A stretch of 35,909 bases of DNA, taken from assembly GCA_009692185.1 (NCBI GenBank), contig SHZT01000008.1:1-35909 (forward strand). Direction: 5' to 3'. Within the stretch, counting starts at the first letter, position 1. The number at the start of each line of letters is the position of its first letter. Made by a program: the position numbers and the translations under genes. This DNA is from Gemmatimonadota bacterium (GTDB taxonomy: Bacteria; Gemmatimonadota; Gemmatimonadetes; Gemmatimonadales; GWC2-71-9). This document shows, piece by piece, positions 5,461 through 26,011 of the stretch. The notes beneath the pieces are model-generated. The model ran no database searches. It saw only the letters and a list, made by a program, of their open reading frames with translations, and was not told where the DNA came from.

Positions 5461-6180
5461 ATGACACAGCGGCCGATGACCGGGGAGGAGCGGAGCCAGC
5501 TCGAGGAATTGTTGAAGAGCGCTCTGGGAGCGGCGAAGCGGCTGGGCGTGGCGGCAGCGAACACCATGGTGGTCTGGCTCGTCGGGCTCGTGGTGCTGGT
5601 GTTCGCGTGGGCTGCGCTGGCGTGGGGCGTGCGGAAAATGTCCGGTCAGGACTTTGGGTTGGCCTCCTGGAGCGCACCCTGGATCGCCTGCGCCGGCGCG
5701 CTCGCCGCCCTGGTGCCGGCGATCAGGTCATCCAGCCGCTGGCTCCGTTCCTGGAAGGACCCCAAGGCACTGATCCGCGCGGACCTTGATGCGGGTGTGG
5801 TCGAGGAGGAGGCGCTCACTTTCACCTCGGCCAGGAGATTCCAGGAACCCGAGCATGGCGGTCTCTTCTACTTCTTGCGCGCCGGGAAAGGCAGAGCATT
5901 CGTGGTCTTCGATCACGAAAGCCAGGACCTCGGGGTCGCCGGGAAGGATCCTCTCGGCAGCAGCTTCCGGCCCTGCGTGGACCTCGTTGTCGCGCGCTCG
6001 CCGGCGAGCCAACTGGTGCTCGCGAAGAGCTTCCTCGGGGAACCGCTCGACGCGGGCATCCCGCTCAGGCTCAAGGCTCCGCCGGATGAGTGGCCGGCAG
6101 AGGACGAGTTCTGTGACATCCCGTGGGGGGAGCTGGAAGATCGTCTTGGCGCCGGCGCCGCTTCGCCCGGCCGCGGCTGA
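5461..6180 (+). CDS. Two-helix membrane protein of unknown function
   Basis: The protein has 239 residues from ATG 5461; an in-frame ATG at 5425 would add 12 mostly basic residues. Neither start has a clear ribosome site. After a short amphipathic helix (GEERSQLEELLKSALGAAKR) come two membrane segments, about residues 34-57 (VVWLVGLVVLVFAWAALAWG) and 73-90. A soluble C-terminal domain of about 140 residues follows, beginning near RSWKDPKALIRADLDAGVVE and including FYFLRAGKGRAFVVFDHES. Both ends of the polypeptide are probably cytoplasmic. I recognise no family. The 41-residue small protein starts 27 bp after its stop with its own ribosome site, so the two are probably co-transcribed. Confidence 0.6.
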   Translation: MTQRPMTGEERSQLEELLKSALGAAKRLGVAAANTMVVWLVGLVVLVFAWAALAWGVRKMSGQDFGLASWSAPWIACAGALAALVPAIRSSSRWLRSWKDPKALIRADLDAGVVEEEALTFTSARRFQEPEHGGLFYFLRAGKGRAFVVFDHESQDLGVAGKDPLGSSFRPCVDLVVARSPASQLVLAKSFLGEPLDAGIPLRLKAPPDEWPAEDEFCDIPWGELEDRLGAGAASPGRG

Positions 6181-14459: not shown

Positions 14460-14903
14460 CTACGGCCGGGTTTCCACCAGGATCACCGCGCGCCGATTGC
14501 CATACACGCCATACCAGTTGTTCGGTGCGTCGGCATCGAGGTAACGGACCTCGGCGATCTTCTCCGCGGGAATCGTGGTGAGCCCCGCGACGCCGCTGGC
14601 GAGGAACAATCCGTCCACGTACACGCGAGGCACACTGGCGAAGGCGGCAACCGGCTCGCCGGGCGCGGCCACGCCGTCATGCAGGTACTCCGGGCACAGG
14701 CGCTGGACCAGGTCGTACGCATTCCGCGCGCGCGCATCCTGGATTTCGTCCCGCGCGATCACGGTGCGGGCATTGCGCGGGTGTGGGCGCGAGGACGCGG
14801 GCGCGGCTCCAACGGTGTCGAGCCGGGCGAGTGATGTGCAGGCGGTCGTCAATCCGAGGATCGCGATCGAAGTCGCGAGTCTGACGGCGTGCGTCGTGTG
14901 CAT
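14460..14903 (-). CDS. Small lipoprotein with TonB-plug-like domain
   Basis: The protein has 147 residues from ATG 14903, preceded by GGGAGGG about four bases upstream. The signal peptide has a lipobox (IAILGLTTAC, Cys about residue 22). The remainder is a small alpha/beta domain of the type seen in TonB-dependent receptor plugs: ARNAYDLVQRLCPEYL, then VPRVYVDGLFLASGVAGLTT, IPAEKIAEVRYLDA and GNRRAVILVETRP. There is no barrel. Such stand-alone plug-like lipoproteins recur in Gemmatimonadota-type genomes, and their role is unknown. It is divergent from the LVIVD paralogue at 15046, with about 140 bp between the starts, room for promoters of both. Confidence 0.75.
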   Translation of the reverse strand: MHTTHAVRLATSIAILGLTTACTSLARLDTVGAAPASSRPHPRNARTVIARDEIQDARARNAYDLVQRLCPEYLHDGVAAPGEPVAAFASVPRVYVDGLFLASGVAGLTTIPAEKIAEVRYLDADAPNNWYGVYGNRRAVILVETRP

Positions 14904-15045
14904 GGGGCCCTCCCTTTCCCCTATCCAGACGCGCGCTCGTTCCGCTTGGTTGCGTTCACCTTGCACCGTTGATGCAACCCGCGACGCGTGCGAGGCGGGG
15001 CCGCGCACCTTGACTCACCCAAATACCCGGCGCTACGTCCTGTGT

Positions 15046-16479
15046 ATGGCGAATATTTGTCTCGGGATTGCCGGCTTCGCGCTGACCGGCGTGGTGGCCG
15101 CCGCTGCGCCCGCGCAGAGCCAGGGTCCATGGAAGCCCCCCGGCTCACCCAACGTTCACGTCCTGGCGCACGTTCCCCTCGGTCGAGCCTTCACCGTCGC
15201 CGGCATCGAGGTCGAGCAGGACCTGGCGCGCCCCTTTGCCTACGTCTCCCGCAAGATCGGCGGCACCAGCGACCCGGGCTTCGACATCATCCAGATGAAG
15301 ACGCCCGGCGGCGCGAGGAGGATCTATTCCTGGCGCATTGATCACCCCGAGCTGCACACGGGGCTGGGCGCATTGGAAGGGAAGTACTTCAAGACGCGCG
15401 GCCGGTATTACTACGTCGAAGTCTTCCAGTTCCTGCCGTCCGGGCCGGATGCCGAACTCGGGGCGATCATCTTCGACGTCACGAGCCTGCCGGATACCAC
15501 GGGCATTCGGGAGGTCGGGCGGATCATGGCGCCCAATTCCGCGCGCGAGGCGGCGGGCGACGTCACCACCGCCCAGCGGCGCGGCTCCGCGGCGGCAACG
15601 CCGGGCGGGTTCCACAACGTCTTTCCGTACAAGCACTCCGACGGACGCGTGCTGATGCTGGCCAACACGCTCACCGGGACGGATGCCAAGATCTATGACA
15701 TGAACAAGTTCCTGAGCGGGGATTCGGTCCATGCGCTGGTCGGCATCGTGCCGGTGCCGGGCGCGACCGGCCGCTATCACGACTACTACGTCGGATACGA
15801 TCCCGCGACGCACCAGGACAAGTTCTACGGCGGCGTGCAACCGGGAGGGTATTTCGTCTTCGACATCACGAGGCCCGAGGCGCCGATCCTGATCACGTCC
15901 GTGACGATGGGCTATCCCTCGATCACGTCGCCGTTTGGGCGGGGTCATACGACCACGCCGAGTCCGGATGGCCGCTATCTCGTCACCGAGACCGAGTATC
16001 AGTATGCGCCGCTTCGCATCTTCGACCTCAAGCCCGGCCTCGACAAGACGGTCGAGACGATCACCCGGCCGATTGGCGCGTGGACGGCGCGCTGGAAAGG
16101 CCTGCCGCACAATCACGAAGTGCGCTGGCCCTACGTCTTCGCGTCGGCGTACGAAGACGGCCTGCAGATCTTCAATCTCATGGATCCGACGAATCCCTAC
16201 ACCGTGGGCTACTACGATACCTATGCCGGCCCGCTCCAGGCGGGAATCGCGGCGGCAGGGCAGAACGAAGGCACGCTCCGCGCGGGCACGGGTGGGGTGC
16301 TGAACGGGGCGTGGGGCATCGATGTACGGAACGCGGACGGGATCATCGTGATCAGCGACGAGGTGACCGGCTTCTGGGCCTTCTCACTCGATGGGTTCGA
16401 TCACTGGAACGGGAAGGATTGGGGAATGCCCAACATCTCGTCGGTGCAGGACTGGGATAAAGGGCCGGGCGGCGGATAG
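15046..16479 (+). CDS. Secreted LVIVD-type beta-propeller protein, first of tandem pair
   Basis: The 477-residue protein is taken from ATG 15046, which gives a signal peptide (MANICLGIAGFALTGVVAAA). A TTG at 15010 is also possible, and the frame stays open much further upstream only as an artefact of GC-rich sequence. The body has repeated propeller-like blades: AIIFDVTSLPDTTGIREVG, GYFVFDITRPEAPILITSV and YAPLRIFDLKPG. The block WPYVFASAYEDGLQIFNLMD and the ending GFWAFSLDGFDHWNG are shared nearly word for word with the next gene. It is an extracytoplasmic protein of unknown function. Adjacent duplication followed by divergence is the simplest origin of the pair. Confidence 0.75.
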   Translation: MANICLGIAGFALTGVVAAAAPAQSQGPWKPPGSPNVHVLAHVPLGRAFTVAGIEVEQDLARPFAYVSRKIGGTSDPGFDIIQMKTPGGARRIYSWRIDHPELHTGLGALEGKYFKTRGRYYYVEVFQFLPSGPDAELGAIIFDVTSLPDTTGIREVGRIMAPNSAREAAGDVTTAQRRGSAAATPGGFHNVFPYKHSDGRVLMLANTLTGTDAKIYDMNKFLSGDSVHALVGIVPVPGATGRYHDYYVGYDPATHQDKFYGGVQPGGYFVFDITRPEAPILITSVTMGYPSITSPFGRGHTTTPSPDGRYLVTETEYQYAPLRIFDLKPGLDKTVETITRPIGAWTARWKGLPHNHEVRWPYVFASAYEDGLQIFNLMDPTNPYTVGYYDTYAGPLQAGIAAAGQNEGTLRAGTGGVLNGAWGIDVRNADGIIVISDEVTGFWAFSLDGFDHWNGKDWGMPNISSVQDWDKGPGGG

Positions 16480-16565
16480 GCGGATGGACGGATAGACGCG
16501 GCTCCTTGCCGCTAGCTGGCCCTGGCCTTTTCTTAGCTGCACCCCTCTCACATCGAGCCCGGTCC

Positions 16566-17936
16566 ATGTCCCGATCCCTCCGCCTGCCCTCGCTCCTGCT
16601 TGCCCTCATGACGCTGGTGGCGCGCGACGCCGTGGCCCAGCTCTTCACGCCGGGCGAACAGAACAGCTCCAACGTGAAAGTGCTGTCGCACATTCCGACC
16701 GGTGGGCCGTTCCACCTGAACAGCATCGACATCGAGCAGGAACTGTCGCGGCCCTACGTCTACGTGTCGCGCCGGAAAGACGCGGGGTTCCACGCCATCA
16801 GCGTCAAGGACCCGGCCAAAGCACAGGTCCTCTATTCCTGGCAAATCGAGAACCAGCCCCTGCACGAGGGCCGCGCGCTGGGCGCGGTGGACATCAAATA
16901 CTTCAAGGCCCGCGGTCGCTATTACGTGGCGCTCGGGCTCCAGTTCGACGCCACCGGCCCCGATACGGACCTCGGCGCCGTGATCTTCGACGTCACGAGC
17001 CTTCCCGACACGACCAGGGTCACGGAAGTGGGCCGCATTCGCGCGCCGGCCACGCCCGGTGGGTTCCACACGGTCTACTCGTACAAGCACTCGGATGGCC
17101 GGGTCCTGCTGTTCACCACCACGTCCGGGCCGCACTACAACGTCTATGACATGGACAAGTTCCTGGCCAAGGGTGCCAACCAGGGCCTGGTGGCGCAAAT
17201 CCCCCTGCCGGAATCACCGGGCATGAGCCGGGCCGGTTACCACGACACGTACGTCGGCTACGACCCGGCGACTCACCAGGACAAGTTCTACGGCGCCGGC
17301 GCGGGCGGTTACTACGTGTTCGACGTCACCCGGCCGGAAGAGCCCAAGCTGCTGACCAGCGTCACCGGGATGTCAGGCATGACCCGCGGGCACACCTTCA
17401 CGCCCGATCCCACCGGCCGCTACGCGGTGATCGAGTCCGAGTACCAGTACGCGCCGCTCCGGATCATTGACCTGAAGCCCGGGCTCGACGGCACCGTGAA
17501 GAACATCACGCGCCCGGTTGGCGCGTGGACGGCGCGCTGGAAAGGCCTGGCGCACAACACCGAGGTGCGGTGGCCCTACGTGTTCGTCTCGGCGTACGAG
17601 GATGGCGTGCAGGTGTTCAACATGATGGACCCCACGAATCCTTACACCGTGGGCTTCTTCCACACCTACGACGGCCCGACCGAGATCAACAAGCCGAACC
17701 CGATGGAACCGAAGGCCAAGCCGGGGGAGGGCGACGTGGACAACGGCTCGTTCGGCATCGACGTGCGGAACGCCGACGGGCTCATTGTTACCGCCGACAT
17801 GTATACCGGGTTCTGGGCGTTCAAGATGGAGGGCTTCGATGGGTGGAACGGCCACCAGTGGGGCCTGCCGAACGTCTCGAGCGCCCAGGACTGGGACAAT
17901 GGCCCGGAGGGTGTGCCGAAGAACAAGGTGAGCTAG
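16566..17936 (+). CDS. Secreted LVIVD-type beta-propeller protein, second of tandem pair
   Basis: The protein has 456 residues from ATG 16566, with a signal peptide ending RDAVAQ (about residue 25). It follows the first paralogue on the same strand by 86 bp. Shared blocks are VIFDVTSLPDTTRVTEVGRI, YYVFDVTRPEEPKLLTSV, the motif GAWTARWKGLAHN and WPYVFVSAYEDGVQVFNMMD. Compared with the first copy it lacks the roughly 20-residue insert near AREAAGDVTTAQRRGSAA and has a longer Lys-rich loop before the last blade (INKPNPMEPKAKPGEG). Function is unknown. The stop is four bases from the stop of the convergent exonuclease gene, and the short inverted repeat GCTAG-GCGT-CTAGC spans the junction. Confidence 0.78.
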   Translation: MSRSLRLPSLLLALMTLVARDAVAQLFTPGEQNSSNVKVLSHIPTGGPFHLNSIDIEQELSRPYVYVSRRKDAGFHAISVKDPAKAQVLYSWQIENQPLHEGRALGAVDIKYFKARGRYYVALGLQFDATGPDTDLGAVIFDVTSLPDTTRVTEVGRIRAPATPGGFHTVYSYKHSDGRVLLFTTTSGPHYNVYDMDKFLAKGANQGLVAQIPLPESPGMSRAGYHDTYVGYDPATHQDKFYGAGAGGYYVFDVTRPEEPKLLTSVTGMSGMTRGHTFTPDPTGRYAVIESEYQYAPLRIIDLKPGLDGTVKNITRPVGAWTARWKGLAHNTEVRWPYVFVSAYEDGVQVFNMMDPTNPYTVGFFHTYDGPTEINKPNPMEPKAKPGEGDVDNGSFGIDVRNADGLIVTADMYTGFWAFKMEGFDGWNGHQWGLPNVSSAQDWDNGPEGVPKNKVS

Positions 17937-19928: not shown

Positions 19929-20045
19929 GCGATAAGAGGCGATGACAGGCCTGACCTTTCCTGAACTATCGAGAAGGAGGGGAGTTATTGCGGTAGACTA
20001 TGCTAGTCGACTGCTGATGAAGGAATCTACACTGGTTCGGGGTTT

Positions 20046-20079
20046 GTCGCGGGCTGAGAGCGCCCTCTCAAGGCGCGAT
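20046..20079. repeat. Short REP-like repeat unit (copy A)
   Basis: The unit reads GTCGCGGGCTGAGAG then CGCCCTCTCAAGGCGCGAT. It carries the imperfect hairpin GCGCCCT-CTC-AAGGCGC (20060-20076). The ends form an imperfect inverted pair: the left end GTCGCG matches the CGCGAC/T at the right end. Its last base is the first base of the msrB stop codon complement (TCA 20079-20081), so it lies immediately after msrB. Confidence 0.75.
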
Positions 20080-20516
20080 CACGAGGGCTTCTCGAAGAGC
20101 TTCTCGAATTCGCCGTATCCCTCTTCCGCCAGCGTGGCCACGGGAATGAACCGCATCGCCGCCGAGTTCATGCAGTAGCGGTGGCCGGTGGGGCGCGGGC
20201 CGTCATCGAACAGGTGCCCGAGGTGCGAATCGGCGCCCGCCGAGCGCACTTCGACCCGCTTCATCCCAAGCATGTGGTCCGTCTCCGTGCGGACGTTCTT
20301 CTCCACCAGCGCCCGGCTGAAACTCGGCCAGCCCGTGCCTGAATCGAACTTGTCGAGCGAGCTGAACAACGGCTCGCCCGAGACTACGTCCACGTAGATC
20401 CCCGGCTCGTGATTGTCCCAGTACTCGTTGCGAAAGGGCCGCTCGGTGCCGGCTTCCTGGGTGACCTGGTACTGGATCGGCGTGAGCTTGTTGAGGTCGG
20501 TCTTGGTTGGCTTCAT
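20079..20516 (-). CDS. msrB: Peptide-methionine (R)-S-oxide reductase MsrB, zinc-free type
   Basis: The protein has 145 residues, normal for MsrB. It reduces the R epimer of methionine sulfoxide in proteins. Visible motifs are [19 protein letters not shown] (about residues 48-66), [11 protein letters not shown] (97-107) and [11 protein letters not shown] with catalytic Cys115. The two Cys-x-x-Cys pairs that hold zinc in many MsrBs are absent (YVDVVSG and RSAGADS occupy those sites), so this is the zinc-free form. There is no signal peptide, so it is cytoplasmic, whereas the upstream MsrA appears exported. The repeat unit at 20521-20640 fills the gap to msrA and comes within four bases of the start codon. 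No Shine-Dalgarno sequence is visible, so translation may be weak or structure-dependent. Confidence 0.95.
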
Positions 20517-20520
20517 AGTT

Positions 20521-20640
20521 GATCGCGGGCTGAGAGTGTTTGACGATCGTCAGTCGCGGGCTGATAGCCCGCGCTCGGCATGTCCTGAAGGACTGCGTGC
20601 GCTTCAGCGCCGCGCCGAGCGCGCCCTCTCAGGGCGCGAC
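20521..20640. repeat. Long REP-like multi-hairpin repeat (copy B)
   Basis: This 120-bp unit fills the msrA-msrB gap. The left part has GATCGCGGGCTGAGAG, then TTTGACGATCGTCAG. The core has these pairings: CGCGGGCT-GAT-AGCCCGCG (20555-20573), GTCCT-GA-AGGAC (20582-20593), GCGCT-TC-AGCGC (20599-20610) and GCGCCCT-CTC-AGGGCGC (20621-20637). GCTCGGC (20573-20579) pairs with GCCGAGC (20614-20620) and encloses the two middle hairpins, a cloverleaf-like fold. It ends one base before the msrA stop complement. Copy 25735-25854 is almost identical in the core. Confidence 0.85.
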
Positions 20641-25154: not shown

Positions 25155-25229
25155 TGATCGCGGGGCTGACAGTTTCGACGTTCGTTGGTCGCGGGCTGAT
25201 AGCCCGTGCTCGGCGTGGCCCTGAAGGGC
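25155..25229. repeat. Left half of the long REP-like repeat (copy C)
   Basis: It matches the first 75 bp of the long unit: GATCGCGGGGCTGACAG, TTCGACGTTCGTTGG, then TCGCGGGCTGATAGCCCG and CTCGGC. It ends in hairpin GCCCT-GA-AGGGC (25218-25229). In the other long copies this hairpin is GTCCT-GA-AGGAC, so a T-A pair is replaced by C-G. The right half is absent; transposase leader sequence follows. Confidence 0.8.
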
Positions 25230-25307
25230 GTTTTTCTGGTACTGGTCGCTGGAAAATGGTGCAGCGCAGAAGCTGGGGCCCAGCATGTTCGGCCCGAGAA
25301 TCTGGCG

Positions 25308-25700
25308 ATGCCTTTCCTACTGCATGCCCTCATTACGTGGACGACCCGCGAGCGGGCTCCGCTCATCACCGCTCGGGTGGCCGACTACTTGCGCGAGGCA
25401 CTCCCCAAACTGGCGCGGCGCTACGGGGCGGAAGTGCTCGAGATGGGGATCGTGAACGACCACGTCCACGTCTTGGCGCGCCTCCCGGCCCGGTTCGATG
25501 TACCGCGTTTGGCGCAGGGATTGAAGGGTGCGACCGCTCGCGTGGCGAATCGTGACGGGACTGCCAAGAAGGGCGAATCGCTCTACTGGGCCTCGGGTTA
25601 CGACCTCCGAGCTGTGGGCGTGCATAGTCTGAAGGCAGCGAAGGCGTATCTCATGACCCAACGCGCTCGGCACCCCGGGCGGGAACCCCGTTCCACGTAG
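25308..25700 (+). CDS. IS200-like / REP-associated tyrosine transposase (Y1_Tnp)
   Basis: The protein has 130 residues from ATG 25308, the usual size of single-domain Y1 HUH transposases; the open frame continues upstream into the flanking repeat without family similarity. Key features are ITWTTRERAPLIT (about residues 9-21), the metal-binding HUH motif H52-V53-H54 in NDHVHVLARLP, QGLKGATARVANR, YWASGYDLRAVG and the probable nucleophile Tyr114 in KAYLMTQRARH. These enzymes cut and join single-stranded DNA at hairpins using one tyrosine and a divalent metal. All catalytic residues are present, so it may be active. It lies between related hairpin repeats, which are its likely substrates. No accessory tnpB/IscB gene is adjacent. 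Confidence 0.8.
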   Translation: MPFLLHALITWTTRERAPLITARVADYLREALPKLARRYGAEVLEMGIVNDHVHVLARLPARFDVPRLAQGLKGATARVANRDGTAKKGESLYWASGYDLRAVGVHSLKAAKAYLMTQRARHPGREPRST

Positions 25701-25734
25701 CGCTTCAGGGCGTCGAACGAGAACGATGAGCGCT

Positions 25735-25854
25735 AGTCGCGGGTTGCGTAGCTTCGACGCTCGTTGTCGCGGGCTGATAGCCCGCGCTCGGCACGGTCCT
25801 GAAGGACACGCAGCGCTTCAGCGCCGCGCCGAGCGCGCCCTCTCAGGGCGCGAT
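25735..25854. repeat. Long REP-like multi-hairpin repeat (copy D)
   Basis: The core (25767-25854) matches copy B at 20554-20640 except around the second hairpin's flanks. All four hairpins and the enclosing GCTCGGC/GCCGAGC pairing are kept. The left flank TTCGACGCTCGTTG matches that of the half unit before the transposase. It begins 35 bp after the transposase stop. Confidence 0.85.
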
Positions 25855-25871
25855 CGAGATCGTGCGGTTGG

Positions 25872-25903
25872 TAGCGGGCTGATTGCCCTCTCTAGGGCGC
25901 GAC
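25872..25903. repeat. Short REP-like repeat unit (copy E)
   Basis: TAGCGGGCTGATTG followed by CCCTCTCTAGGGCGCGAC. It has the same left end and right-end hairpin as the other short units, with a small loop change. It lies 18 bp after long copy D. Confidence 0.7.
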
Positions 25904-25948
25904 ATGAATCGCATTCGTTCGTCCTCCGACAGTGGTTTTGGGCCGACC

Positions 25949-25968
25949 GCGCCCTCTCAGCGCGCGAC
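25949..25968. repeat. Right-end fragment of the REP-like repeat (copy F)
   Basis: GCGCCCTCTCAGCGCGCGAC matches the terminal hairpin of the family with one base difference (AGCG for AGGG). No left end is present. It lies 43 bp before the start of the DUF5916 gene at 26012. Confidence 0.6.
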
Positions 25969-26011
25969 CGACATGCTACCTTAATGACGAACCCTTCGGA
26001 ACAGACCGGTC

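Follow-up and report, generated by a model that had tools for sequence, protein, structure and literature searches.

A Y1 transposase with a probable REPIN-like repeat family of its own in Gemmatimonadota

The Gemmatimonadota contig analyzed here encodes a Y1 single-strand transposase that likely possesses its own REPIN-like repeat family, in which loss of the gene between two inner hairpins would yield dispersed gene-less repeats. The best reading of this arrangement is a new REPIN-forming lineage that plausibly stands between the IS200 elements and the RAYT systems. The stretch of DNA under study (35,909 bp, hereafter the window) represents contig 17 in a genome of 2.63 Mb with a completeness of 99.94%. 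Its attribution to Gemmatimonadota, considered probable in the initial annotation, is right: MAGs of Gemmatimonadota make up all of the nearest named relatives except three, namely, one Deltaproteobacteria/Myxococcota, one Ca. Eisenbacteria and one distant Planctomycetota record. These odd-phylum relatives are possibly MAG binning errors.

An IS200-class transposase distinct from canonical RAYTs

The transposase gene (positions 25308-25700, plus strand, ATG start) encodes a 130 aa protein with the IS200-class motifs. The catalytic residues read initially from the translation, H52-V53-H54 and Y114, are exact and are accompanied by W94 and Q118. The protein matches the Pfam family Y1_Tnp (E=5e-20), passes the NCBIfam cut-off for IS200/IS605 (62.6 vs 55 bits) and is assigned to a transposase family in PHROGs. 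In the structural comparison, the predicted fold (pLDDT 88.5, pTM 0.82) best matches the ISDra2, IS608 and IS200 transposases, followed by the E. coli RAYT (4ER8). No other Y1 protein above the Pfam cut-off is encoded in the window's genome, and no tnpB adjoins the gene.

Judged by published motifs, the protein is IS200-class, whereas its arrangement is REPtron/REPIN-like. It displays the features of subclass 1.1, that is, DH[VI]H, Y---Q and a protein confined to the core, with the conserved tryptophan followed by A, not T/S. The tyrosine motif reads Y114-LMT-Q118, and Y---Q is found in all aligned members of the clade. Subclass 1.2, which is described as having WQ and no REPs (PMC6006769), is further marked by Y---Q--HH; the window protein has WA and Y---Q--RH, and REPs are present.

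The identification of the enzyme as a RAYT in the initial annotation was not supported. The protein carries Y---Q instead of Y---NP, its score against the NCBIfam REP_Tyr_transpos model (39 bits) is far below the cut-off of 80, and the foot of the associated repeats is GCCGAG, not GTAG. In a tree of 50 proteins, all Y---Q proteins, the window protein included, are separated, with support of 99/95, from the class 2 RAYTs, represented by E. coli RayT and two Planctomycetota proteins; the long branches call for caution. The clade of the window protein received modest support (79/80) and is placed apart from the six IS200/IS605 references, which form their own branch (98/94).

The same tree sets apart (100/98) a second Gemmatimonadota Y1 clade (loci L021, L026, L027 and L030), whose genes lie amid tandem CCCCGGGG-type palindromes; these palindromes are a separate REP-like system. 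A Planctomycetota relative (L133) followed as a possible route to class 3 turned out to be class 1.2-like. The Planctomycetota genome G118 encodes at least four subclass-1.2-like Y1 proteins (L134, L136, L138 and L140; WQ.GY, Y---Q--HH), the gene for each located between nested inverted hairpins, in contrast to the description of subclass 1.2 as devoid of REPs.

Gene-less repeats and a split repeat in the window

Two gene-less repeats of about 88 bp in the window share the same build: two outer hairpins, CTCGGC and GCCGAG arms able to pair, and two inner hairpins. Copy 1 (20553-20640, plus strand) consists of an outer hairpin, CTCGGC, GTCCTGAAGGAC, GCGCTTCAGCGC, GCCGAG and the second outer hairpin; its right end adjoins TCAT, which is the msrA stop region (GAATGA) read on the opposite strand. 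Copy 2 (25766-25854, plus strand), about 66 bp 3' of the transposase gene, has the same architecture, with GTCCTGAAGGAC and GCGCTTCAGCGC as the inner hairpins. Single-strand folding of both copies is far stronger than that of shuffled sequences (z of -5.7 and -4.3, 0/200). These repeats had been recognized initially at 20521-20640 and 25735-25854; they are real and join both halves without the gene, but the wider bounds take in about 30 bp on the 5' side that are shared more weakly.

Upstream of the gene, the left half-repeat noticed initially is present at 25171-25227 (88% to the repeat, E=5.8e-13). It includes an outer REP half on the minus strand (25186-25214), with the GCCGAG foot and an 8-bp hairpin with one mismatch (R1 match of 42.3 bits), and, closer to the gene, the left inner hairpin GCCCTGAAGGGC (25218-25229, plus strand), identified by sequence and fold. 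On the right side, the reported start of the other half holds in part. Ten nucleotides, AGCGCTTCAG, are identical to the repeat, and a remnant spanning the stop codon, CACGTAGCGCTTCAG (25694-25708, plus strand), matches it in 14/15 positions; in gene-less copy 2, the matching string comes straight after the left inner hairpin. Among random 60-mers of the window, 10 identical nucleotides were reached in 1.1%, and at most one mismatch in 15 in 49/20,000 (about 0.25%), so the match is probably not due to chance. Downstream of CACGTAGCGCTTCAG, the similarity degenerates, and the right outer half (GCCGAG and hairpin) is missing, with a complete gene-less copy starting about 57 bp further on.

On its own, the window is suggestive of a transposase nested in a split repeat. 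Having lost the right outer half, its gene-bearing copy can probably no longer move as a whole, but the gene is intact, and its product could still work on the copies without the gene. Degenerate pieces, all on the plus strand, accompany the repeats: a lone right half-unit (25942-25974), a left hairpin fragment (25867-25886), another left hairpin fragment adjoining copy 1 (20518-20537), and a left and a right outer hairpin fused together (20042-20085), possibly the scar of an internal deletion. The copy number in the window's genome is low: 12 half-units were detected at E<=0.05, and repeat pairs amount to about three near-complete ones and some degenerate ones.

Elsewhere in the window (14575-17936), two adjacent related genes without a Pfam match contain DNA stretches that are 77-85% identical. 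Compared with a genome of the same genus (G001), which is not collinear with the window, this region matches dozens of paralogous places on many contigs (most of 81 matches), a large family expansion.

Nesting of the gene in related genomes

The nested arrangement is clearest in a related genome, G048, where the left half TTGGACAGGCTAAAGCCTGTGCTCGGCTAACACTGTCCTGAAGGACA on contig 14 is followed by tnpA and then by TGTCCTTTAGGACAGTGTCTGCCGAGCACACCCTTTAGGGTGTGA. The intact element reads [outer hairpin-CTCGGC-inner hairpin]-tnpA-[inner hairpin-GCCGAG-outer hairpin], and a copy without the gene, located 2 kb away, agrees with its left half in 44/47 and with its right half in 41/45 positions. Both alignments end within one shared inner hairpin, so that the gene-less form corresponds to the gene-bearing one with the whole stretch from one inner hairpin to the other left out; the borders of the element are those of the repeat. 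In genome G018, the element matches its own gene-less copy (L106) in 55/60 and 55/59 positions, and its matches to other genomes are shorter or poorer. A gene-less copy that keeps both ends, a MITE-like trait, is therefore seen in G048 and G018 and, more weakly, in the window. The proposed pairing of transposase and repeat, with both halves shared by gene-less copies, is supported, clearly in these two genomes and suggestively in the window. The shared halves also agree with the view, put forward from the start, that the long repeats are deletion derivatives; we infer the direction, from gene-bearing to gene-less.

Nesting is not the rule across the clade. Among the 18 loci with half-units on both sides, the gene lies inside a split inverted pair in nine and between complete repeats in five; the remaining four, including the window, are mixed. 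The nearest half-units around the gene showed no significant orientation bias when either side was taken alone (p 0.82 and 0.26), and the notion that they are always inverted about the gene was dropped.

Filled and empty sites

Gene-less repeats are polymorphic for insertion or loss among congeners, at sites often located just 3' of stop codons. An 88-bp repeat of G048 (C85:1217-1304, L177) is absent from G041, G042, G044, G047, G049 and G050, all of which contain at the empty site a single ATGA that forms the overlapping stop and start of two genes; in G045, the match coordinates give the same 4-bp overlap. At the filled site, ATGA is present on both sides. Genome G043 (L194) carries an 85-bp copy at this site in the opposite orientation, which reflects either inversion or independent insertion. 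A second gene-less copy of G048 corresponds to a 15-bp spacer in G042, with the left flank 98% identical. A fixed target site duplication or target was rejected, as ATGA is present on one side only at a second site. Because ATGA at the first site is the overlapping stop/start, its presence there may reflect selection.

At the site of the second G048 copy, where G048 contains a full repeat, G045 (L239) and G046 (L211) retain short chimeric single hairpins, apparent remnants of a repeat lost through internal deletion from one outer hairpin to the other. The genomes of the G048 genus also contain a different dispersed intergenic repeat (GTCATCCTGAGCG...AGGAYCT; L177:3583-3660 and 5611-5710), with up to 43 nt identical between species.

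The gene-bearing unit is absent from the G048 junction in G047 and occupies a different junction in G045, where the gene has an internal deletion. Likely, this unit moves as well, but because G045 and G048 also differ in gene order, these observations fall short of proof. They bear on the strongest competing explanation, an ordinary REPtron, in which a stationary, domesticated gene accumulated cognate REPs around it, the nested appearance came from chance REP pairs, and the gene-bearing unit never moves. Such a REPtron would account for the one gene copy per genome that is the rule in the clade and for the 5/18 loci with complete repeats on both sides and the 4/18 mixed ones; moreover, published REPtrons are said not to transpose as a unit, tnpAREP being without evidence of mobility (PMC6006769, PMC8266576). 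Nevertheless, we consider it unlikely, given that, in G048 and G018, the two flanks of the gene each make up one half of a gene-less repeat, up to the inner hairpins, and that the same bordered unit is found at another junction in G045.

Structure and distribution of the half-units

On either strand, the outer half comprises GCCGAG and a hairpin of 7-8 bp, or of 6-7 bp in a variant, centred on T(T)NNA, most commonly followed by an AAC or ACC tail. In the hairpins of 16 and 10 distinct halves, standard pairing amounts to 97.7% and 100%, and covariation to 0.461 and 0.717, compared to 0.134 and 0.142 in shuffled alignments; slid controls were exceeded as well. The invariance of the foot is partly by construction because the search required GCCGAG and a hairpin. 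The foot includes the CnGA characteristic of class 3, as CCGA, one base from the stem, and differs from the GT[AG]G foot of RAYT REPs. As in REPINs, two inverted REP units separated by a short spacer are dispersed between genes; the high copy number of REPINs is not reached in the window's genome.

A profile built from eight homologues was run on 102 genomes of the window's family, with the cut set by eye at a gap in the scores. The clade transposase was found in 38 of these genomes, as a clearly separate set (at least 124 bits). Half-units were counted with two covariance models: at least five are present in 35/38 genomes with the transposase vs 20/64 without it (Fisher odds ratio of 26, p 7e-10, without phylogenetic correction and with often incomplete assemblies). 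The repeat is thus co-distributed with this transposase clade. The highest counts (model 1) are 56 in G054 and 42 each in G018 and G061. A scarcity of further copies, which the initial annotation took as grounds for rejecting the link, is half apparent in the window's own genome, with its 12 half-units, and not in the relatives, with up to 56. Nearly all clade members examined have units beside them, with the same foot and with genome-specific hairpin letters, and the near-identical multiple transposase copies of IS200/IS605 are not seen, one copy per genome being the rule.

These patterns make it very improbable that the transposase is that of an IS200-type insertion sequence inserting into REPs already present, without any part in making the repeats. 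The protein does score above the IS200/IS605 cut-off, and some insertion sequences are known to target REPs (PMC1525189; ISPpu9, PMC8450116). An element of this kind would, however, be at odds with the lack of multiple near-identical copies, the same foot beside nearly every clade member despite differing hairpin letters, the repeats tracking the presence of the transposase, and the coincidence of element and repeat borders in G048. The strong hairpins and the insertions just behind stop codons could also suggest host RNA or terminator elements with the transposase as a passenger, but species-specific covarying letters, clean-site polymorphism and co-distribution with the gene fit mobile DNA, leaving this the least credible explanation, even if the repeats may have a secondary RNA role.

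Relation to known systems

The window system combines traits of several described ones. With IS200/IS605 TnpA (subclass 1.1), it shares DHVH, Y---Q, a short core-only protein, the NCBIfam and PDB matches and a hairpin-bordered gene; it differs in the inverted end hairpins with feet pointing inward, the single copy, the lack of an adjoining tnpB and the separate branch (98/94). Like the MITEs and palindrome-associated elements of IS200/IS605, it has a gene-less derivative with both ends, but its ends form inverted pairs of REPs, and gene-less copies are far more numerous than gene-bearing ones.

The RAYT/TnpAREP systems with REPINs in E. coli, Pseudomonas and Stenotrophomonas likewise combine a single-copy Y1 gene with dispersed inverted pairs of foot and hairpin in lineage-specific letters. 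RAYTs, however, have Y---NP and a GTAG foot, and in the REPtrons described in the literature examined, the gene is located beside the REPIN rather than inside it. The closest published architecture is that of TIRtrons (Di Nocera et al. 2013, PMC3733652), where a Y1 gene is enclosed by inverted, partly self-complementary repeats, which are also found without the gene as dimers or clusters; the TIRYT proteins are RAYT-type, mostly of subclass 2.1 with a C-terminal HTH, and the repeat consensus is GGGGWSAS, unlike here.

Quentin et al. 2018 (PMC6006769) distinguish class 3 REPtrons, reported from Planctomycetes, Acidobacteria and Proteobacteria and regarded as a possible evolutionary intermediate, by the motifs NHVH and Y----Q, by a core of greater length and by atypical hairpins with a CnGA foot. 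A Y1 gene between atypical hairpins, the CnGA foot, W[TA] and REP-like dispersal are common to class 3 and the window system; compared by published motifs, the proteins differ, with NHVH, Y----Q and an N-terminally extended core profile of 155 aa in class 3 and with DHVH, Y---Q and a total of 130 aa in the window protein. The literature searched, mostly outside subscription journals, contains no Gemmatimonadota case of such a system.

Proposed origin of the repeats

From the established biology of Y1 enzymes (IS608, ISDra2, TnpAREP), the enzyme of the window clade would be expected to work on hairpins in DNA left single-stranded at replication forks, guided by the foot. It probably recognizes each end as single-stranded DNA, with GCCGAG as the candidate guide next to the near-perfect, T(T)NNA-centred hairpin, and the candidate cut region beside the AAC/ACC-like tail. 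The full element would have the architecture of the intact G048 copy, and loss of the gene between its two inner hairpins would produce the two-armed gene-less repeat of about 80-90 bp. Gene-bearing or gene-less copies would then have moved into intergenic regions, often directly behind a stop codon.

A broader proposition, for and against which we see the chances as roughly balanced, is that an IS200-class lineage founded a REP/REPIN system independently of RAYTs. Its autonomous form would carry the gene inside the REPIN and shed it by deletion between the inner hairpins, so that these REPINs would be the MITEs of a Y1 transposon that can still be recognized, an intermediate on the way from IS200 to domesticated RAYT systems.

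The origin and spread of REPs are described as unresolved (PMC6006769, PMC8266576). In the present case, one genome contains the element both with and without its gene, the halves matching, and close relatives provide clean filled and empty sites; the route from an autonomous IS200-like element to a REPIN family therefore becomes directly testable outside Proteobacteria. In relatives, the gene-less repeats come and go as discrete units, a pattern suggesting that ordinary jumping genes and the domesticated REP repeats of bacteria are connected.
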